64,000 nucleotides of DNA, from assembly GCF_007747655.1 (NCBI RefSeq), contig NZ_CP036274.1:682001-746000 (forward strand). The letters run 5' to 3'. Shown here one piece after another: positions 34,909 through 40,161 of the stretch. The notes below the pieces were generated by a model, which was not told the origin of the DNA, ran no database searches, and was given only the letters and a program-made list of their open reading frames with translations. Made by a program: the position numbers and the translations under genes. The DNA is from Anatilimnocola aggregata (GTDB taxonomy: Bacteria; Planctomycetota; Planctomycetia; Pirellulales; Pirellulaceae). Every line of letters starts with the position of its first letter. Positions within the stretch are counted from its first letter, which is position 1.

Positions 34909-35583
34909 TTATTCCGGCCCAATGTAGAACACATCGTCATCCTTCCCCTTGGCACCGCGCTGCTTGCGCCCAGGTGAATTGGGTACCGGTGTATTCTCGT
35001 CAATGAAAAGGACTTCGCCCGTGGCTGCGGGAGAGGTCCACCGAACACCTTCGCCCGCGCGATGCGAATAGCTGACGATATTCGACGTGCTCACACTGCC
35101 AGCCGAACGCAGAGGACGACTGTCGACCGGAAGTTGATGCTTGCATTCGTCCTCGTACCAATTCTTGGCCGAGTAGTTGGTTGCGCGGTCGAGATTCAAA
35201 TAGGCACTGCGAGCCATGTCCCACAAACGCTCGCAGATTACGTCGAGCCCCACGTCGGGCATCCATGGCAAACCCATTTCGTTCAGGTTGACGAACCCGC
35301 TGAACGAAATGTTGGGGTGAAGAATGGGAGTGAGCCAGCGAATATCGGGCGGGCTGGTGGGATAGGCATAGGGCAAGCGCACTTCGACCTGGTGAAGTTC
35401 GACAATCGAGATCTCGCCGGTCTGGGTCACATCGCGGGCCAGTCCTTTGCCGCGAAACGTAAAGACATACCGATCGGCTGGTTCCCCAAACGATTCGACT
35501 TTCAAAATGCTGCTGCCGGCACTCAGCTTCTGCAACAGCGCGTGGTCGGCGAGCAGACGTTCGGTGCGTTGCTTGGGATCCAT
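34909..35583 (-). CDS. E2-fold (UBC-like) protein lacking the catalytic cysteine
   Basis: A 224-residue protein with the E2 core: YPTSPPDIRW (the P-x-x-P strand region), LHPN (88-91, the family HPN motif) and LPWMPDVGLDVICERLWDM. It aligns position for position with the active E2 of the same operon (39030-39782). There Cys99 follows the HPN; here residue 99 is Asn (FVNLNEMG), so it cannot form a thioester at that site. This recalls the UEV class of eukaryotic E2 variants. The tail (180-224) carries two acidic-hydrophobic motifs, VLFIDE (191-196) and DDDVFYIG (215-222). It starts 4 bp after the stop of the membrane JAB gene and is the last gene of the operon. Confidence 0.85.
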   Translation of the reverse strand: MDPKQRTERLLADHALLQKLSAGSSILKVESFGEPADRYVFTFRGKGLARDVTQTGEISIVELHQVEVRLPYAYPTSPPDIRWLTPILHPNISFSGFVNLNEMGLPWMPDVGLDVICERLWDMARSAYLNLDRATNYSAKNWYEDECKHQLPVDSRPLRSAGSVSTSNIVSYSHRAGEGVRWTSPAATGEVLFIDENTPVPNSPGRKQRGAKGKDDDVFYIGPE

Positions 35584-35587
35584 GAAT

Positions 35588-37024
35588 CTATCCTACGTTC
35601 TTGCCTGAGTTCTTTTCCGGGCTCGCGGTTTCGGTGGCCGGACTGTCGACTGCGGATGGCGGTGACTCTACCAGTGATTCGTCCACCGGAGCGTGCGCTT
35701 GGTTACGAAACCAATAACCGGCGAAACCGAAGGCCGCCAGTACGATGATGCCGCCTCCTAAATACCACCAGGTGCGGCCGTTTGGCGGCCAGGCGAAGGG
35801 ACTGGTGCTGACCTCGTCGGCGGCGGGCTGCAATTGCTTTTCGAGCGCGGCAATTTGTCCGTCGCGCAGCTTCAGGTCGTCCGCCAGCTTCGTGTTCTCG
35901 GCATGGAGCTTCTCGTTTTTCGCTTCCCAGGTCTCAATCACAGCGGCCTGGTCAAGATTACTGCGCTCGAGTTTTTTGAGGCTGGCTTCGAACTCCGCGA
36001 ACTTGTGCTCCTGCACTGCCTGACTATTGCGCAGCGCCAGTTCCAGATCTTTCCGTTTGTTCATCTCCTCGCGATAGTGCTCGACCAGCCCGCGATCGGT
36101 TCCCTTCACTTCTTGCAGCACGCGATCCATCACCAGCAAGTCGCGCTGGCTCTGATGGGCCAATTGTTCAGCCTCGGCGCGGGCCGCCAGTTCTTTTTCC
36201 AAGCTAAGTTTGGCAACCGCAGAATCGCCGCCATCGGGCGTGGCGAGCAGTTTCCAGGCAATCAGCGAGAGCAGGCAGAACTGCAGCGCGAGCATGCCCA
36301 TCATCGCCATTCCTTCCCACGCGGGCTTCGGTGGCGGTGGTGGCGACTGCACGTAAATATTCGGCGAACCCGCGGAACCAGGTGTATAGCTGGGCATTGC
36401 TTGTTTTCCTTCTAACGCCTGCACGGTCTGTTCGAGTTCGGCCTGTCGAAAACGGGACGCGGTGACAAAGAACCCGCCCGTTCGCCTGATCCGTTCTTTG
36501 GGTTTGCCGGTCCACATGAAGAACGCCCGATCGAGCCGGCAGGGATCGATCACGTACGCCACGTCGAGCGGCTTGTTGAAAAAGTTATCGCAGATGAACA
36601 TGTCCATGCCCGACAAGAACACACCCCAATCGGGATGCGTGTGATACCAGCCGGCCATTTGCATCTCGGCAGGAAACTCGTCCCGCTGGCGCGAGATCTT
36701 CTCCCACGTATCGTGCGTGAACTTGAAGCTTCCCTTCGTGCTTTCGTAATGCTCGGCCCGCAGCGAATCGGAAATGACGACGAAGGGCTGGCCTTCCGCA
36801 TCTTCATAATGCCCGCCCAACATCACGCCGCCCAGTTCGACCGTCTTATCGCTTGCCGCGTGAGCTTCCATATCCAAGAGCACATCGAGGTCGACAAAAA
36901 TCGGCAGATCACGCTCGACGGGCTGGCCATAAGCGACCACAGCAAAATGGCGATTGCGGTCGGGTCGCAGGTTCTGCTGCGGCTGCGACTCCTCGACTTC
37001 GCCAAATTGCATGTCGTCGGACAT
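35588..37024 (-). CDS. Membrane-anchored JAB/JAMM isopeptidase with coiled coil
   Basis: The 478-residue product has an N-terminal JAB/MPN domain with complete JAMM chemistry: Glu64 (VELGGVMLGG), His128 and His130 (GWYHTHPDWG), Ser138 and Asp141 (SGMDMF). A proline stretch (227-234) leads to a membrane helix (about 238-258). A charged coiled coil (about 272-400) and a second membrane helix (about 419-438) follow, then an acidic tail. Such domains cleave isopeptide bonds of ubiquitin-like conjugates. The topology suggests deconjugation at the inner face of a membrane. The gene abuts the E2-like gene (4 bp) and follows the E1. A pyrimidine-rich leader shared with the E1 gene sits directly before its ATG, and no Shine-Dalgarno is visible. 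Confidence 0.87.
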   Translation of the reverse strand: MSDDMQFGEVEESQPQQNLRPDRNRHFAVVAYGQPVERDLPIFVDLDVLLDMEAHAASDKTVELGGVMLGGHYEDAEGQPFVVISDSLRAEHYESTKGSFKFTHDTWEKISRQRDEFPAEMQMAGWYHTHPDWGVFLSGMDMFICDNFFNKPLDVAYVIDPCRLDRAFFMWTGKPKERIRRTGGFFVTASRFRQAELEQTVQALEGKQAMPSYTPGSAGSPNIYVQSPPPPPKPAWEGMAMMGMLALQFCLLSLIAWKLLATPDGGDSAVAKLSLEKELAARAEAEQLAHQSQRDLLVMDRVLQEVKGTDRGLVEHYREEMNKRKDLELALRNSQAVQEHKFAEFEASLKKLERSNLDQAAVIETWEAKNEKLHAENTKLADDLKLRDGQIAALEKQLQPAADEVSTSPFAWPPNGRTWWYLGGGIIVLAAFGFAGYWFRNQAHAPVDESLVESPPSAVDSPATETASPEKNSGKNVG

Positions 37025-37061
37025 AGGGGAAGGGGCTGGGGGTTAGGAACTAGGGGCTAGG
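37025..37061 (-). repeat. Pyrimidine-rich leader before the membrane JAB gene
   Basis: On the minus strand the sequence before ATG 37024 contains CCTAACCCCCAGCCCCT, which differs at 3 of 17 positions from CCTAACCTCTGGCCCCT before the E1 start. Both abut an ATG followed by TCCGAC, and neither contains a Shine-Dalgarno sequence. Confidence 0.6.
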
Positions 37062-37083
37062 GGAAGGCAAGGCACTGATGAGG

Positions 37084-38247
37084 TTAGGCCTTGAATACTT
37101 CTTTCTCATCAGCGGCCAGCAGAAAGGTTTGATACTCACCGCCGCCGGTAACGCGAACAATATCGTAAGCAGGAATGCCGAGGGCAGCGAGTTTTTCACT
37201 GGCGAGCGGATGATCTTGAGCGATGGAGTGAATCATCTCGGGCTGGGCCGCCTGACTGCAACTGGGACACAAAGCTTCATCGGCGGCGACCAGTTGCTGC
37301 GGCCGCATGACGCTGCGCGTATTGCCACAACCACAGTGCAGCGCGAGGACCAGGTCCCGATCGAGTTCGAGCGTTAGCTTGGTACCTGCGGCGAAATGCG
37401 AGCGGGCCGCCCCGAATAGATCCTGCGCGGTAAACGATGCCGCGGAGGCGTCAAGCGAGATCGGCTCGGGGTAAGTCTCGTGGCTGAGGCAATCTTCTCG
37501 CCGCTGATAATGGGTCGTATAGAAGTTGTTGGCGATCCCATTGAAAACCATCGCCGCGCCGGCTTGCACAGGCAGACCGTGCAGCAGTTTGAGCGCTTCC
37601 TGGGTCTGCAGCCCAGCGATCATCGAACCAATCGTCGGGGCAGTCGGCACTTTGCCTGCGAGCAAGTCCTCTCGCTTCAGCAGCGGGCAACTATAGCGCA
37701 AACTGATGAGGCGATAATCGTTCTCGGTCATCGCGCATTCATAGCAAGCGCTGCCCGGCGGCACAAAGACTTTGGCCACGCCACTGATCTCTTGAATCCC
37801 ACCATCCACCCACGGTGTGCCGACTTTCCAGCAGCAGCGATTGACCCACAGTCGAGCTTCGCGATTGTCGAGGCAGCCGATCACCACGTCGACATCGCGA
37901 AATACACCTAGCCCGATGTCGGTCATCACGTTGCCGTGAATCGGCACCACGTGCGTATCGGGATTAATCTCGTGCAGCATCTTCGCTGCGGCGATCGCTT
38001 TGCTCTGGCCGCGGTCACTCGCGCGAAACAGAACCGAGCGCGTCAGGTTCGAGTCTTCGATCTCGTCGAGATCGATCACCAGTACCTTGCCCACACCCAG
38101 CAACGAGAGATTCTTCAGCACCTCATTGCCCAGCGCTCCGGCACCCACGACCAAAATCTTCGCCGCGCGCAGTTTGTCCTGATCCCACCAGCTAATAAGC
38201 CGGAGGCGCGAGTAGCGGTCATCATCGTCGATGATAAAGTCGGACAT
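37084..38247 (-). CDS. E1-like (ThiF/MoeB fold) activating enzyme
   Basis: The 387-residue enzyme is expected to adenylate the C-terminal Gly of the operon's ubiquitin-like protein and pass it to a cysteine. The ATP-binding loop is VVGAGALGN (33-41). IDLDEIEDSNLTRSVLF (58-74) holds the acidic nucleotide-contact residues and Arg70. CYEC (168-171) is a zinc-type CxxC, Cys187 (YSCPLLK) is the best candidate catalytic cysteine, and AGLQTQEALK (211-220) matches the family end-helix. A C-terminal extension has CGC (305-307) and CPSC (327-330), probably a second metal knuckle, then a small domain to residue 387. It lies between the two JAB genes. The canonical RQ is RS here. Confidence 0.9.
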   Translation of the reverse strand: MSDFIIDDDDRYSRLRLISWWDQDKLRAAKILVVGAGALGNEVLKNLSLLGVGKVLVIDLDEIEDSNLTRSVLFRASDRGQSKAIAAAKMLHEINPDTHVVPIHGNVMTDIGLGVFRDVDVVIGCLDNREARLWVNRCCWKVGTPWVDGGIQEISGVAKVFVPPGSACYECAMTENDYRLISLRYSCPLLKREDLLAGKVPTAPTIGSMIAGLQTQEALKLLHGLPVQAGAAMVFNGIANNFYTTHYQRREDCLSHETYPEPISLDASAASFTAQDLFGAARSHFAAGTKLTLELDRDLVLALHCGCGNTRSVMRPQQLVAADEALCPSCSQAAQPEMIHSIAQDHPLASEKLAALGIPAYDIVRVTGGGEYQTFLLAADEKEVFKA

Positions 38248-38256
38248 GGAAGGAGG

Positions 38257-38382
38257 GGCCAGAGGTTAGGGGCCAGGGACCAGGATAAACGCTCAGATTT
38301 GGAGTTTGCAGTCCATGATTATTGATTGCAGCAGTTTTGAGAACCTTGCCTTTCCCTGATCCCTGGCCCCTAACCTCTGGCC
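38257..38382. repeat. 23-bp perfect inverted repeat between JAB and E1 genes
   Basis: The arm at 38257-38279 is the exact reverse complement of 38360-38382, with 80 bp between. The left arm forms the E1 leader and the right arm ends next to the stop codon of the upstream JAB gene. A transcript could fold into a long hairpin between the two cistrons, and the arms resemble the leader at 37025-37061. Confidence 0.85.
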
Positions 38383-38383
38383 G

Positions 38384-38905
38384 CTACCCGCCGAGGCACA
38401 CAAACCCACAGTCGAGGACTTCGTCGGCGCGCCAGTGGAAGAAGCCGAGTTCCTGGCGACGGGGGTCGACGACCATGGCGATTTGCCAGGGGAGCGAAAA
38501 AAAGTTGCGGTGAATGAACAGGTCATAAGCGGAGAGGAAAACGCCAAAACCTGGATGCGTATGTTGCCAGCCGACAACGACCGCACCAGGAAAGCGAAGT
38601 TCCGCCTGCCGGTGCAAGTCAGACCAGGTCTCATGCGTGAAGGTTAGGGACGCGGCCCGCGAAGTGGCTTGCACGGCGGGATGAAAATGCCGCACGATCA
38701 CGCAATTGGGCTCTTCTTGATGAATCTCGCCCAGCAAGAAACCTCCCACTTCGCGCACCAGGTCGTGACTTGAGTACGACAGAATCTCGTCGAGCACGGG
38801 CTCTTCGATCACGACCACTGCGCCGCTCCGATAGAGCGTCCCCAGTTGCCGCGCATCGCGCAGCCGGTCGAGGTCAAAAGGTTCTTTGGCCCGAGCTGAG
38901 GTCAT
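38384..38905 (-). CDS. Soluble JAB/JAMM isopeptidase
   Basis: The 173-residue stand-alone JAB domain has no signal or membrane helix. JAMM residues are complete: Glu52 (VREVGGFLLGE), His115 and His117 (GWQHTHPGFG), Ser125 and Asp128 (SAYDLF). It resembles the JAB domain of the membrane protein in the same operon, sharing the HTHPxxGVFLS block, which suggests duplication followed by specialisation. It should cleave the modifier from targets in the cytoplasm. Because the modifier ends directly in AG, no maturation cleavage seems needed, so deconjugation is the likelier role. It lies between the active E2 and the E1 genes. Confidence 0.88.
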   Translation of the reverse strand: MTSARAKEPFDLDRLRDARQLGTLYRSGAVVVIEEPVLDEILSYSSHDLVREVGGFLLGEIHQEEPNCVIVRHFHPAVQATSRAASLTFTHETWSDLHRQAELRFPGAVVVGWQHTHPGFGVFLSAYDLFIHRNFFSLPWQIAMVVDPRRQELGFFHWRADEVLDCGFVCLGG

Positions 38906-39029
38906 AGCAATGGAATGGTATCAATACGAAATGTTCGCGATTGCCTGAGCCAGAAGCGTCAGCGGCGCGGAGAATTCACTGCCGAAGCAAGTACTCTCCG
39001 GGCGCTAACGCTACCGGCTCAGAAATGGA

Positions 39030-39782
39030 CTATTGAATAAACATGATGTCGGAATCGCTGGCAGCGGGACGAACGATCTCGGCTTCAATGGCGTCATCCA
39101 AAAACATCACGCCACTTTCTTCCGCTTCGTTAGCGCGCCGCGCAATAGTCGCGGCGGGACGAACGGGGGGACGAATGACAGGCGGAATTGCGGCGCGAAC
39201 GGGGACCGGCACCGCGGCGACTGGTGTGCGCACGGGGCGATCGAGCTTGGCCGGCGTCGGCTTTATGCCCATGCTTTCCATTTCTGCCGCCCGGGCAAGT
39301 CGGTCGCGTAGCGGGCGAGCATCGAGCGGCAACTTGTGCGACGACTGGGTCTTGGCCCACAGGGCCGCTTCGCGATTGTAGGGGCTCGTCACGTCGTAGT
39401 TTTCGTAACGAATCATGTCCCACAGCATGTGGCACAATTCGTCGAGCGTAAGGCTCGGCACCCAATACGTACCATAGCCGCCGAGGCAGACCGAGCCGTT
39501 GCCCGAAATGTTCGGATGGAAGATCGGCGACTTCCAGCGAATCTCTGGCATCATGCGCGGATAGCCCGCGCCGAGCCGAATGGTCACTTCGTGACGTTCC
39601 TGAAGTTCGATCGGTCCGCTGTTCTCGCCGCGCATCAGGCCGCGGCCGAGAAAACGAATCTGATACGCCTCGGGCAGGTCGCCATCGGCAGTGAAATGCA
39701 GGATCGAACTTTCGGCCTGCAGCTGTTGCATCGCTCTCAGGTCGCTATGCAGCCGGCGCAGGCGGGGAGATGTAGCGCTCAT
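39030..39782 (-). CDS. E2-like conjugating enzyme with catalytic cysteine
   Basis: ATG 39782 (MSATSPRLRRLHSDL) gives 250 residues; an upstream in-frame extension to 39848 overlaps the gap before the modifier gene and looks non-coding. The UBC core has PRMMPEIRW, FHPNISGNG (HPN 89-91), and VCLGGYGTYWVPS with Cys99 at the E2 active-site position, then LTLDELCHMLWDM. After residue 165 comes a Pro/Ala/Arg-rich linker. The tail carries two acidic-hydrophobic motifs, SGVMFLDD (223-230) and SDSDIMFIQ (242-250). It should receive the modifier from the E1. It shares the whole design with the Cys-less protein at 34909-35583, pointing to an ancient duplication. Confidence 0.87.
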   Translation of the reverse strand: MSATSPRLRRLHSDLRAMQQLQAESSILHFTADGDLPEAYQIRFLGRGLMRGENSGPIELQERHEVTIRLGAGYPRMMPEIRWKSPIFHPNISGNGSVCLGGYGTYWVPSLTLDELCHMLWDMIRYENYDVTSPYNREAALWAKTQSSHKLPLDARPLRDRLARAAEMESMGIKPTPAKLDRPVRTPVAAVPVPVRAAIPPVIRPPVRPAATIARRANEAEESGVMFLDDAIEAEIVRPAASDSDIMFIQ

Positions 39783-39852
39783 GCGAATGTTTGAGCCAGA
39801 AGAGAAGAAAAGACTTAGAACTCGGCAGACCAGGAGGTCTGCCGCCACGAGC

Positions 39853-40161
39853 TTAACCGGCCACGATCTCGGGATAGACGATCAAGTGATGACCGTCGAA
39901 TACCGAGGCGTCGATCAGGGTTTGTTCTTCGCGCAGCCGCTTGCCACCCTCTTTATGATCGAGGCTATAGCTCATCGGCTGCCCGTCGGGACCCATCACG
40001 GGTAAGTTCATTTTGGTGATGATGTTGGGCAGAATTCGCTTCACGGTGACCGTATCGGCAATCACCGCTTCGACGCTCTTGGCGCCGGTCTGATCGAGAA
40101 ACGTAACCCGCGTTCCCTTACGCTCCTCGTTCGAGGACGCTGCATTCGAGGGGACAGACAT
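39853..40161 (-). CDS. Ubiquitin-like beta-grasp modifier protein
   Basis: ATG 40161, with AGGAG (40172-40176 on the minus strand) 10 bases upstream, gives 102 residues. After a flexible 16-residue N-terminus the sequence follows a ubiquitin-like beta-grasp: RVTFLDQTGAKSVEAVI (hairpin), KRILPNIITKMNLP (helix), MSYSLDHKEGGKRLREEQ and LIDASVFDGHHLIVYPEI. The chain ends ...EIVAG, so a C-terminal Gly is exposed without processing. The nearest described relatives are YukD-type and Bil/Bub-type ubiquitin-like proteins. It is first in a six-gene operon with E2, E1 and two isopeptidases, which makes a modifier role far likelier than sulfur carriage. Confidence 0.85.
   Translation of the reverse strand: MSVPSNAASSNEERKGTRVTFLDQTGAKSVEAVIADTVTVKRILPNIITKMNLPVMGPDGQPMSYSLDHKEGGKRLREEQTLIDASVFDGHHLIVYPEIVAG

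Follow-up and report, generated by a model that had tools for sequence, protein, structure and literature searches.

The operon

Positions 34909-40161 of a 64,000-nucleotide stretch of Anatilimnocola aggregata DNA (NZ_CP036274.1, 682,001-746,000; the window) hold six tandem minus-strand genes whose products belong to the families of a ubiquitin-like (Ubl) conjugation pathway. In transcription order, the list of open reading frames (ORFs) gives a modifier (Ubl), an E2 (E2a), a JAMM isopeptidase (JAB1), an E1, a second JAMM isopeptidase (JAB2), and an E2-fold protein that lacks the catalytic cysteine (E2i). All six proteins match Pfam above curated cut-offs in a profile search. Both E2-fold proteins also carry tail motifs that resemble SUMO-interacting motifs (SIM-like).

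39853..40161, minus strand: Ubl modifier, YukD family, 102 residues, ends ...PEIVAG (Pfam YukD, 4.4e-15)
39030..39782, minus strand: E2a, active E2, 250 residues, Cys99 (UQ_con, 1.3e-12)
39096..39113, minus strand: SIM-like tail motif GVMFLD, E2a residues 224-229 (sequence position, pattern family)
39033..39050, minus strand: SIM-like C-terminal tail motif DIMFIQ, E2a residues 245-250 (conserved I246, F248)
38384..38905, minus strand: JAB1, soluble JAMM isopeptidase, 173 residues (Pfam JAB, 2.4e-10)
37084..38247, minus strand: E1, 387 residues, single adenylation domain plus C-terminal Cys-pair (zinc-ribbon-like) region (ThiF, 2.2e-54)
35588..37024, minus strand: JAB2, membrane-anchored JAMM isopeptidase, 478 residues (Pfam JAB, 4.5e-8; predicted transmembrane segment)
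34909..35583, minus strand: E2i, Cys-less pseudo-E2, 224 residues (UQ_con, 1.1e-10)
34999..35016, minus strand: SIM-like tail motif EVLFID, E2i residues 190-195 (sequence position, pattern family)
34918..34935, minus strand: SIM-like tail motif DVFYIG, E2i residues 217-222 (sequence position, pattern family)

The Ubl ORF is extendable to TTG 40200, and that of E2a to GTG 39848; from ATG 39782, the E2a cysteine is residue 99 and the Ubl-E2a gap is 70 bp. A first-pass annotation of the window, made from the DNA letters and their ORFs, had listed the same six genes in the same order, and the ORFs and Pfam families agree. Its range for the intergenic gaps, 4 to 124 bp, was in error: the coordinates give 4 to 136 bp, with 136 bp between JAB1 and E1. 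Elsewhere in the 9.0-Mb, one-contig genome there are no further relatives by these profiles: Ubl is the single YukD match, and E2a and E2i alone match UQ_con.

A recurrent gene order

The operon is more than a chance assembly, because dozens of genomes share its gene order. When a public genome collection was scanned with Ubl, 308 relatives appeared, and the 80 best were retained (loci L029-L108). Among these best 80 of 308, 75 have planctomycete titles, two (L035 and L042) have no group name, and L086, L092, and L102 are bins titled Abditibacteriales, Riflebacteria, and Wallbacteria. Gene order was read in the 59 loci with their own Ubl call and at least 6.5 kb after Ubl; the other 21, left uncounted, are too short or hold Ubl only inside a fused ORF.

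The order Ubl-E2a-E1-JAB2-RING is present in 26 of the 59 loci. The same order plus JAB1, E2i, and one to three RING genes is present in 19, and other orders or partial sets in 14. Throughout the 59, all called components lie on one strand. In 52, a RING gene is no more than 2 kb away from another component; the loci without one nearby are L043, L054, L062, L075 (Ubl alone), L102, L106, and L108. Singulisphaera acidiphila DSM 18658 (L107), cultured and with a complete genome, has the core set and, next to it, a RING gene; E2i and JAB1 are both absent. Three bins titled Riflebacteria (L092), Planctomycetota (L101), and Wallbacteria (L102) show yet another order, E1-Ubl-E2a-JAB1, in which JAB2 was not called; L092 and L101 are short contigs.

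This survey and the profile searches, both proposed with the first-pass annotation, uphold its reading of a Ubl-E1-E2-JAB conjugation operon. That annotation had also described the gene set as unusual. The combination it had in mind is real (an active and an inactive E2, a soluble and a membrane JAB), but it is not a one-off: the second JAB and the dead E2 recur together in relatives. Overlooked at that stage were the YukD family of the modifier, the recurrence of E2i with JAB1, and the motif-bearing E2 tails.

Modifier, E1, and JAMM peptidases

Ubl belongs to the YukD/EsaB family, with one YukD match in its 102 residues. No other protein of the six is as well conserved: the median identity to the window sequence is 79.5% for Ubl (E1, 60.5%; JAB1, 56%; E2a, 51.5%; E2i, 43.3%; JAB2, 39.3%). 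Among the 77 aligned Ubl proteins conservation stops at Ala-Gly, and 48 end exactly there; the window modifier has the glycine terminus first proposed for it. Most of the others have a short, variable C-terminal extension; that of L102 is long, and L075 reads Ala-Arg. The pattern is as for a processed modifier. Three lysines, at positions 28, 50, and 70 counting from ATG 40161, are kept in 97 to 100% of the proteins, and Ubl chains are therefore possible. A sequence search of the PDB with the Ubl profile returned only weak matches, to ubiquitin-type proteins (best E 0.01).

Natural Ubl-E2a fusion ORFs occur in three related metagenome-assembled genomes (L059:8301-9242, L060:10001-10942, and L065:9977-10918), in which PEIVAG is followed directly by E2 sequence. 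Either a JAB cuts the fusion, or the E2 carries its own Ubl.

E1 contains one ThiF match (residues 15-253), and its PDB sequence matches are UBA7, UBA5, and UBA3. Cys125, Cys168, Cys171, Cys187, and Cys253 are present in 72 of 72 aligned E1 proteins, and cysteines 305, 307, 327, and 330 in 99%. Cys187 is the candidate thioester residue, since Cys168 and Cys171 resemble a zinc pair and Cys125 appears to belong to the region of the ThiF domain that binds the nucleotide.

Both window JAB proteins keep the JAMM residues (H-x-H-P...S-x2-D), as do 30 of 30 JAB1 and 60 of 60 JAB2 proteins; the two isopeptidases first called at this locus thus both have an intact metal site. A hydropathy threshold predicts one transmembrane segment in the window JAB2, in keeping with its earlier description as a membrane protein. 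Two such segments are predicted in 50 of the 60 JAB2 proteins, a set that includes the window.

An active E2 and a pseudo-E2

The E2a cysteine is present in all 77 aligned rows and in all 70 of a second alignment (A3), which supports the earlier assignment of Cys99 from ATG 39782. The AlphaFold2 (AF2) model of E2a has a UBC core with confidence (pLDDT) mostly above 90 and a tail modeled as coil at 50 to 80; Foldseek best matches are eukaryotic E2 enzymes such as UBE2A/Rad6 and UBE2D. The first-pass annotation would have been abandoned had the E2 lacked a UBC fold, and for E2a the model shows that core.

E2i and E2a share 40% identity across 156 residues. At the aligned active site of E2i none of 24 sequences has a cysteine (Asn in 10, then Asp, Ser, Gly, and others), as first noted for the window protein. 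In eukaryotes, Ubc13-Mms2 (UEV) joins an active E2 to a Cys-less E2-fold partner. By family (UQ_con) and by the missing catalytic cysteine in the alignment, E2i is UEV-like at the sequence level, and Ubc13/Mms2-like pairing with E2a is, by this analogy, most likely.

E2i travels with JAB1. Among 58 loci with E2a, E1, and enough flank, both genes are present in 21 and both absent in 34; JAB1 occurs alone in two (L054 and L102), and E2i alone in one (L044) (Fisher p 1.6e-12, ignoring relatedness). In a quick E1+E2a tree of 59 rows (the 58 loci and the window), each gene changes at least eight times. The two likely form a functional accessory pair, judging from this shared pattern of presence and absence.

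RING proteins

RING proteins are the predicted E3 of such gene sets. In relatives the gene after E2i encodes a protein with an N-terminal transmembrane segment and a C-terminal finger of the pattern C-x2-C...C-x2-C-x3-H-[HC]-x2-C-W...C...C; nine of its columns do not vary among 37 rows. Prok-RING_1 scores above its Pfam cut-off in five of five tested relatives.

The first-pass annotation had called the window operon complete; the usual membrane RING gene is absent from it and is encoded elsewhere in the genome. There, a tandem RING pair lies at C1:7864122-7865793 (E 2.5e-77 and 5.5e-71), about 7.1 Mb from the operon in contig coordinates, and both copies exceed the Prok-RING_1 cut-off. In the lineage of A. 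aggregata, operon and likely ligases lie apart; presumably this pair serves the operon. A RING gene inside the operon, although usual in relatives, is not taken here as defining for prokaryotic RING-type Ubl systems. What marks such a system is otherwise found: a single operon holds Ubl, E1, an E2 with its cysteine, and a JAMM peptidase, and the same genome encodes a RING protein from the family seen beside such operons.

Motif-bearing E2 tails

Both E2a and E2i end in long, variable tails with a repeated motif resembling D-[IV]-x-F-[IL]-[DE]. The search pattern was written after inspection of the same tails, and 300 shuffles served as control. The 77 E2a tails contain 129 matches, against a shuffle mean of 3.6 (highest 10); 71 have at least one match and 44 at least two, and in 62 the last match is the very C-terminus. 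The 24 E2i tails contain 38 matches, against 0.7 (highest 4), and 22 have at least one. Because the pattern came from the same data and the sequences are related, the ratios serve as a description of the motif and not as a test. A stricter C-terminal form is present in 58 of the 77 E2a tails; the window DIMFIQ is among the 19 misses, by its last letter (Q). In alignment A3, I246 and F248 are nearly invariant.

As a contrast, the last 70 residues of the other proteins were compared with their shuffles: E1, 1 match versus 2.3; JAB1, 1 versus 1.1; Ubl, 0 versus 5.4; JAB2, 5 versus 1.0; and RING, 8 versus 0.9. The JAB2 and RING matches mean that the pattern is not confined to the E2 proteins. The motif is absent from the E2 proteins of six planctomycete operons of another type (class B, L022-L027), two of which have no tail past the cut. 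At the C-termini of JAB2 from five loci without E2i (L076, L078, L079, L080, and L084), the stretch [SG]-[EQ]-M-F-F-V resembles the E2 tail motif.

A DNA pattern scan of the genome for other C-terminal carriers found six sites (two in the backward control) and no new carrier. One site is E2a itself, and one, with an in-frame stop in a variable codon, was left out. Of the four translated, three run on via a Trp codon; the fourth, followed by a stop, ends no ORF of at least 40 residues.

SUMO-interacting motifs share a consensus of a short hydrophobic core with acidic flanks. The E2 tails fit this type: core and flanks are alike, and the tail is modeled as coil. By this resemblance, the tails probably hold Ubl non-covalently. 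In SUMO itself, such motifs bind the groove between β2 and α1 (PMC12687455; this and the other articles are cited for the parts of their text accessible to us).

Surroundings of the operon

The JAB1-E1 gap is occupied by an inverted repeat, with 31-nt arms at 38254-38284 and 38355-38385 that are 94% complementary and 70 nt apart. Its 19-nt core is exact in the two arms only, and matches three further places in the genome at two mismatches. The repeat could be an mRNA fold or a small mobile remnant.

Typed neighbors in the window are a DUF11 protein, a TMEM43 protein, a short-chain dehydrogenase, and two proteins without a Pfam match; none is a WXG100 or FtsK-like ATPase gene. Across the 80 loci, an opposite-strand gene 1.1 to 3.7 kb before the operon is common to 43 (62 reach 3.5 kb upstream), and other neighbors recur too. 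The shared upstream protein (for example, L031:6985-7785(-)) is conserved, with no Pfam match at E 0.001. Its copy in the A. aggregata genome, at C1:3064125, lies apart from both the operon and the RING pair.

A proposed mechanism

Together, these results suggest a reversible, membrane-associated conjugation system with a YukD-family Ubl and a Ubc13/Mms2-like E2 pair, to which we assign a probability of about 0.72. E1 would adenylate the C-terminal glycine of Ubl and probably hold Ubl on Cys187, from where it would pass to Cys99 of E2a. Transfer to lysines of proteins near the membrane would be directed by the membrane proteins that end in a RING-like finger. JAB2, at the membrane, and JAB1, in soluble form, would remove the tag; in relatives with a C-terminal extension, the JAB proteins would also trim the Ubl precursor. 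Catalytically dead E2i most likely pairs with E2a, as Mms2/UEV does with Ubc13; this pairing would steer how chains are built or which substrates are chosen, and E2i would work together with JAB1. In E2a and E2i alike, the SIM-like tails probably hold Ubl without a covalent bond.

We infer each chemical step, and likewise the membrane-protein substrates, the E2a-E2i pairing, the ligand of the tails, and the physiological role. The order of reactions is that of established E1-E2-E3-JAMM logic and of the archaeal cascade of PMC5654768. Predicted transmembrane segments in JAB2 and in the RING proteins point to a membrane as the site of both conjugation and removal. A more ambitious version is tentative, and as a whole we lean against it: the E2 tails would be bacterial counterparts of SUMO-interacting motifs with a YukD-type Ubl as non-covalent ligand, E2a-E2i a processive, Ubc13/Mms2-like chain builder at the membrane, and JAB1 its dedicated chain editor, so that Ubl chains are written, read, and erased.

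Several observations weigh against the proposed system. Cys187 falls off the UBA5 residue that we take to be catalytic (phmmer alignment), and Cys125 is just as invariant in E1. The window operon contains no RING gene, and most relatives have one. The tree yields three independent supported pairs for the E2i/JAB1 contrast, concordant in 2.4 on average over random pairings; with three pairs the contrast cannot reach significance. The AF2 model of the L060 Ubl-E2a fusion (built from 3 fused and 42 E2a rows) gives the Ubl half a pLDDT of only about 40, which is no basis for docking. Finally, YukD is reported as not covalently conjugated to other proteins (PMC1779556).

Alternative explanations

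This last report, together with the Pfam name and the one WXG100 gene in the genome, would also suit a YukD-type Ubl that belongs to a type VII secretion system and is not conjugated. We consider this very improbable. The sole WXG100 match (C1:7677086) lies about 7 Mb from the operon in contig coordinates, and the link was dropped for that distance; no obvious secretion ATPase appears in the 19.5 kb around it (ORF list by eye, no profile search), and in relatives Ubl is tied to E1, E2, JAB, and RING genes. The WXG100 protein itself (L028:10681-11763, C1 ~7.676 Mb) has two small same-strand neighbors. Less credible still is a sulfur-carrier or cofactor pathway of the ThiF/MoeB kind. The best NCBIfam scores of E1 are indeed to ThiF and MoeB models, far below their cut-offs, but Pfam finds no rhodanese domain in E1, the operon holds two E2-fold proteins and two JAMM peptidases, and RING genes occur in relatives. 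Anti-phage defence, in which virion proteins are tagged as by Bil and Bub, deserves more weight and is nonetheless unlikely. A patchy occurrence would fit: with the A. aggregata genome included each time, Ubl relatives are present in 33 of the phylum's 392 genomes and E2a relatives in 11 of the order's 146. The bacterial Ubl systems studied so far appear to act primarily against phages (PMC12687455). Against this, the upstream gene common to 43 of 80 loci and the recurring neighbors look like stable chromosomal places rather than defence islands, and PADLOC has no family for Ubl or either E2, with partial matches for E1 and the JAB proteins. The typed neighbors in the window also count against it. 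The first-pass annotation had considered a defence role not shown, and that judgment stands.

Two further alternatives concern parts of the proposed system. E2i might be a decaying duplicate without a role: the catalytic cysteine is missing in 24 of 24, and its median identity is below that of E2a (43.3% versus 51.5%). Decay is improbable for a protein that remains full-length, keeps the tail motif in 22 of 24, and agrees with JAB1 in presence or absence at 55 of 58 loci. What the tails bind is a closer call. Eukaryotic E2 tails that bind E1 or E3 exist, and the Cdc34 tail is acidic; likewise, the motif might bind a RING protein, E1, or another partner instead of Ubl, and no structure shows docking on Ubl. 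This is a serious contender, somewhat short of even odds. It is opposed by the hydrophobic core and acidic flanks, which fit the SUMO-interacting type and its groove, and by the class-B operons, whose E2 proteins lack the motif in the loci seen despite the presence of E1 and RING together with a different Ubl.

Comparison with known systems

Burroughs, Iyer, and Aravind (2011, Mol Biosyst 7:2261) reportedly predicted prokaryotic Ubl-E1-E2-RING-JAB operons and suggested that YukD-like Ubls are perhaps conjugated. A 2014 review, citing Burroughs et al. 2011, describes Ub/E1/E2/RING/JAB operons in Actinobacteria, Planctomycetes, and Acidobacteria (PMC4197634). The kind of operon is therefore already known, because the planctomycete examples in the accessible text of that review bring together the same Ubl, E1, E2, JAB, and RING genes. 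Class-B operons have in common with the window operon a related Ubl in four of six, E1 and a JAB with a hydrophobic stretch in five of six, and E2 in six of six; they also have RING proteins. They have one E2 without a tail motif, and neither E2i nor JAB1 was seen; L023, the only one typed, also encodes an FHA membrane protein, a zinc-ribbon protein, and RING and RING-trypsin proteins.

Biochemical proof of a Ub/E1/E2/RING/JAMM cascade comes from the archaeon Candidatus Caldiarchaeum subterraneum (PMC5654768). It has the same activities in a compact locus, and its JAMM protein (Rpn11) trims the Ubl precursor and removes conjugates. As far as the accessible text goes, the archaeal locus is described with a small RING protein (srfp) and one E2. 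The RING proteins found here have transmembrane segments instead, and they are joined by a second, dead E2, a second JAB, and a YukD-type Ubl with a single terminal glycine. The first-pass annotation had instead likened the operon to Bil (BilABCD), which shares Ubl, E1, E2, and JAB (PMC11354881). That likeness fails on domain architecture: BilA has two Ubl domains and BilD two adenylation domains (one inactive, one active), as the accessible text describes them, and here there is one of each; RING genes also accompany the operon in relatives. Membership in Bil was rejected on the single YukD match in 102 residues, the single ThiF domain, and the lack of a PADLOC match for Ubl or E2.

If the proposed system is correct, a bacterial, RING-type, membrane-associated Ubl system has an E2/pseudo-E2 pair and a SIM-like motif, traits usually thought eukaryotic. 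How E2-UEV pairs and the non-covalent recognition of a Ubl arose then becomes directly testable. Published work on a pseudo-E2/JAB1 pair or an E2 tail motif was not found among the listed titles and starts of abstracts, in a search that left most subscription journals uncovered. The type of kit was predicted before; the conserved, docking-like tail motif on both E2 proteins may be new. The nearest eukaryotic parallel to the pair itself is Ubc13-Mms2, with the same combination of active and Cys-less proteins; here the pairing is putative, between an E2i and an E2a that are 40% identical.

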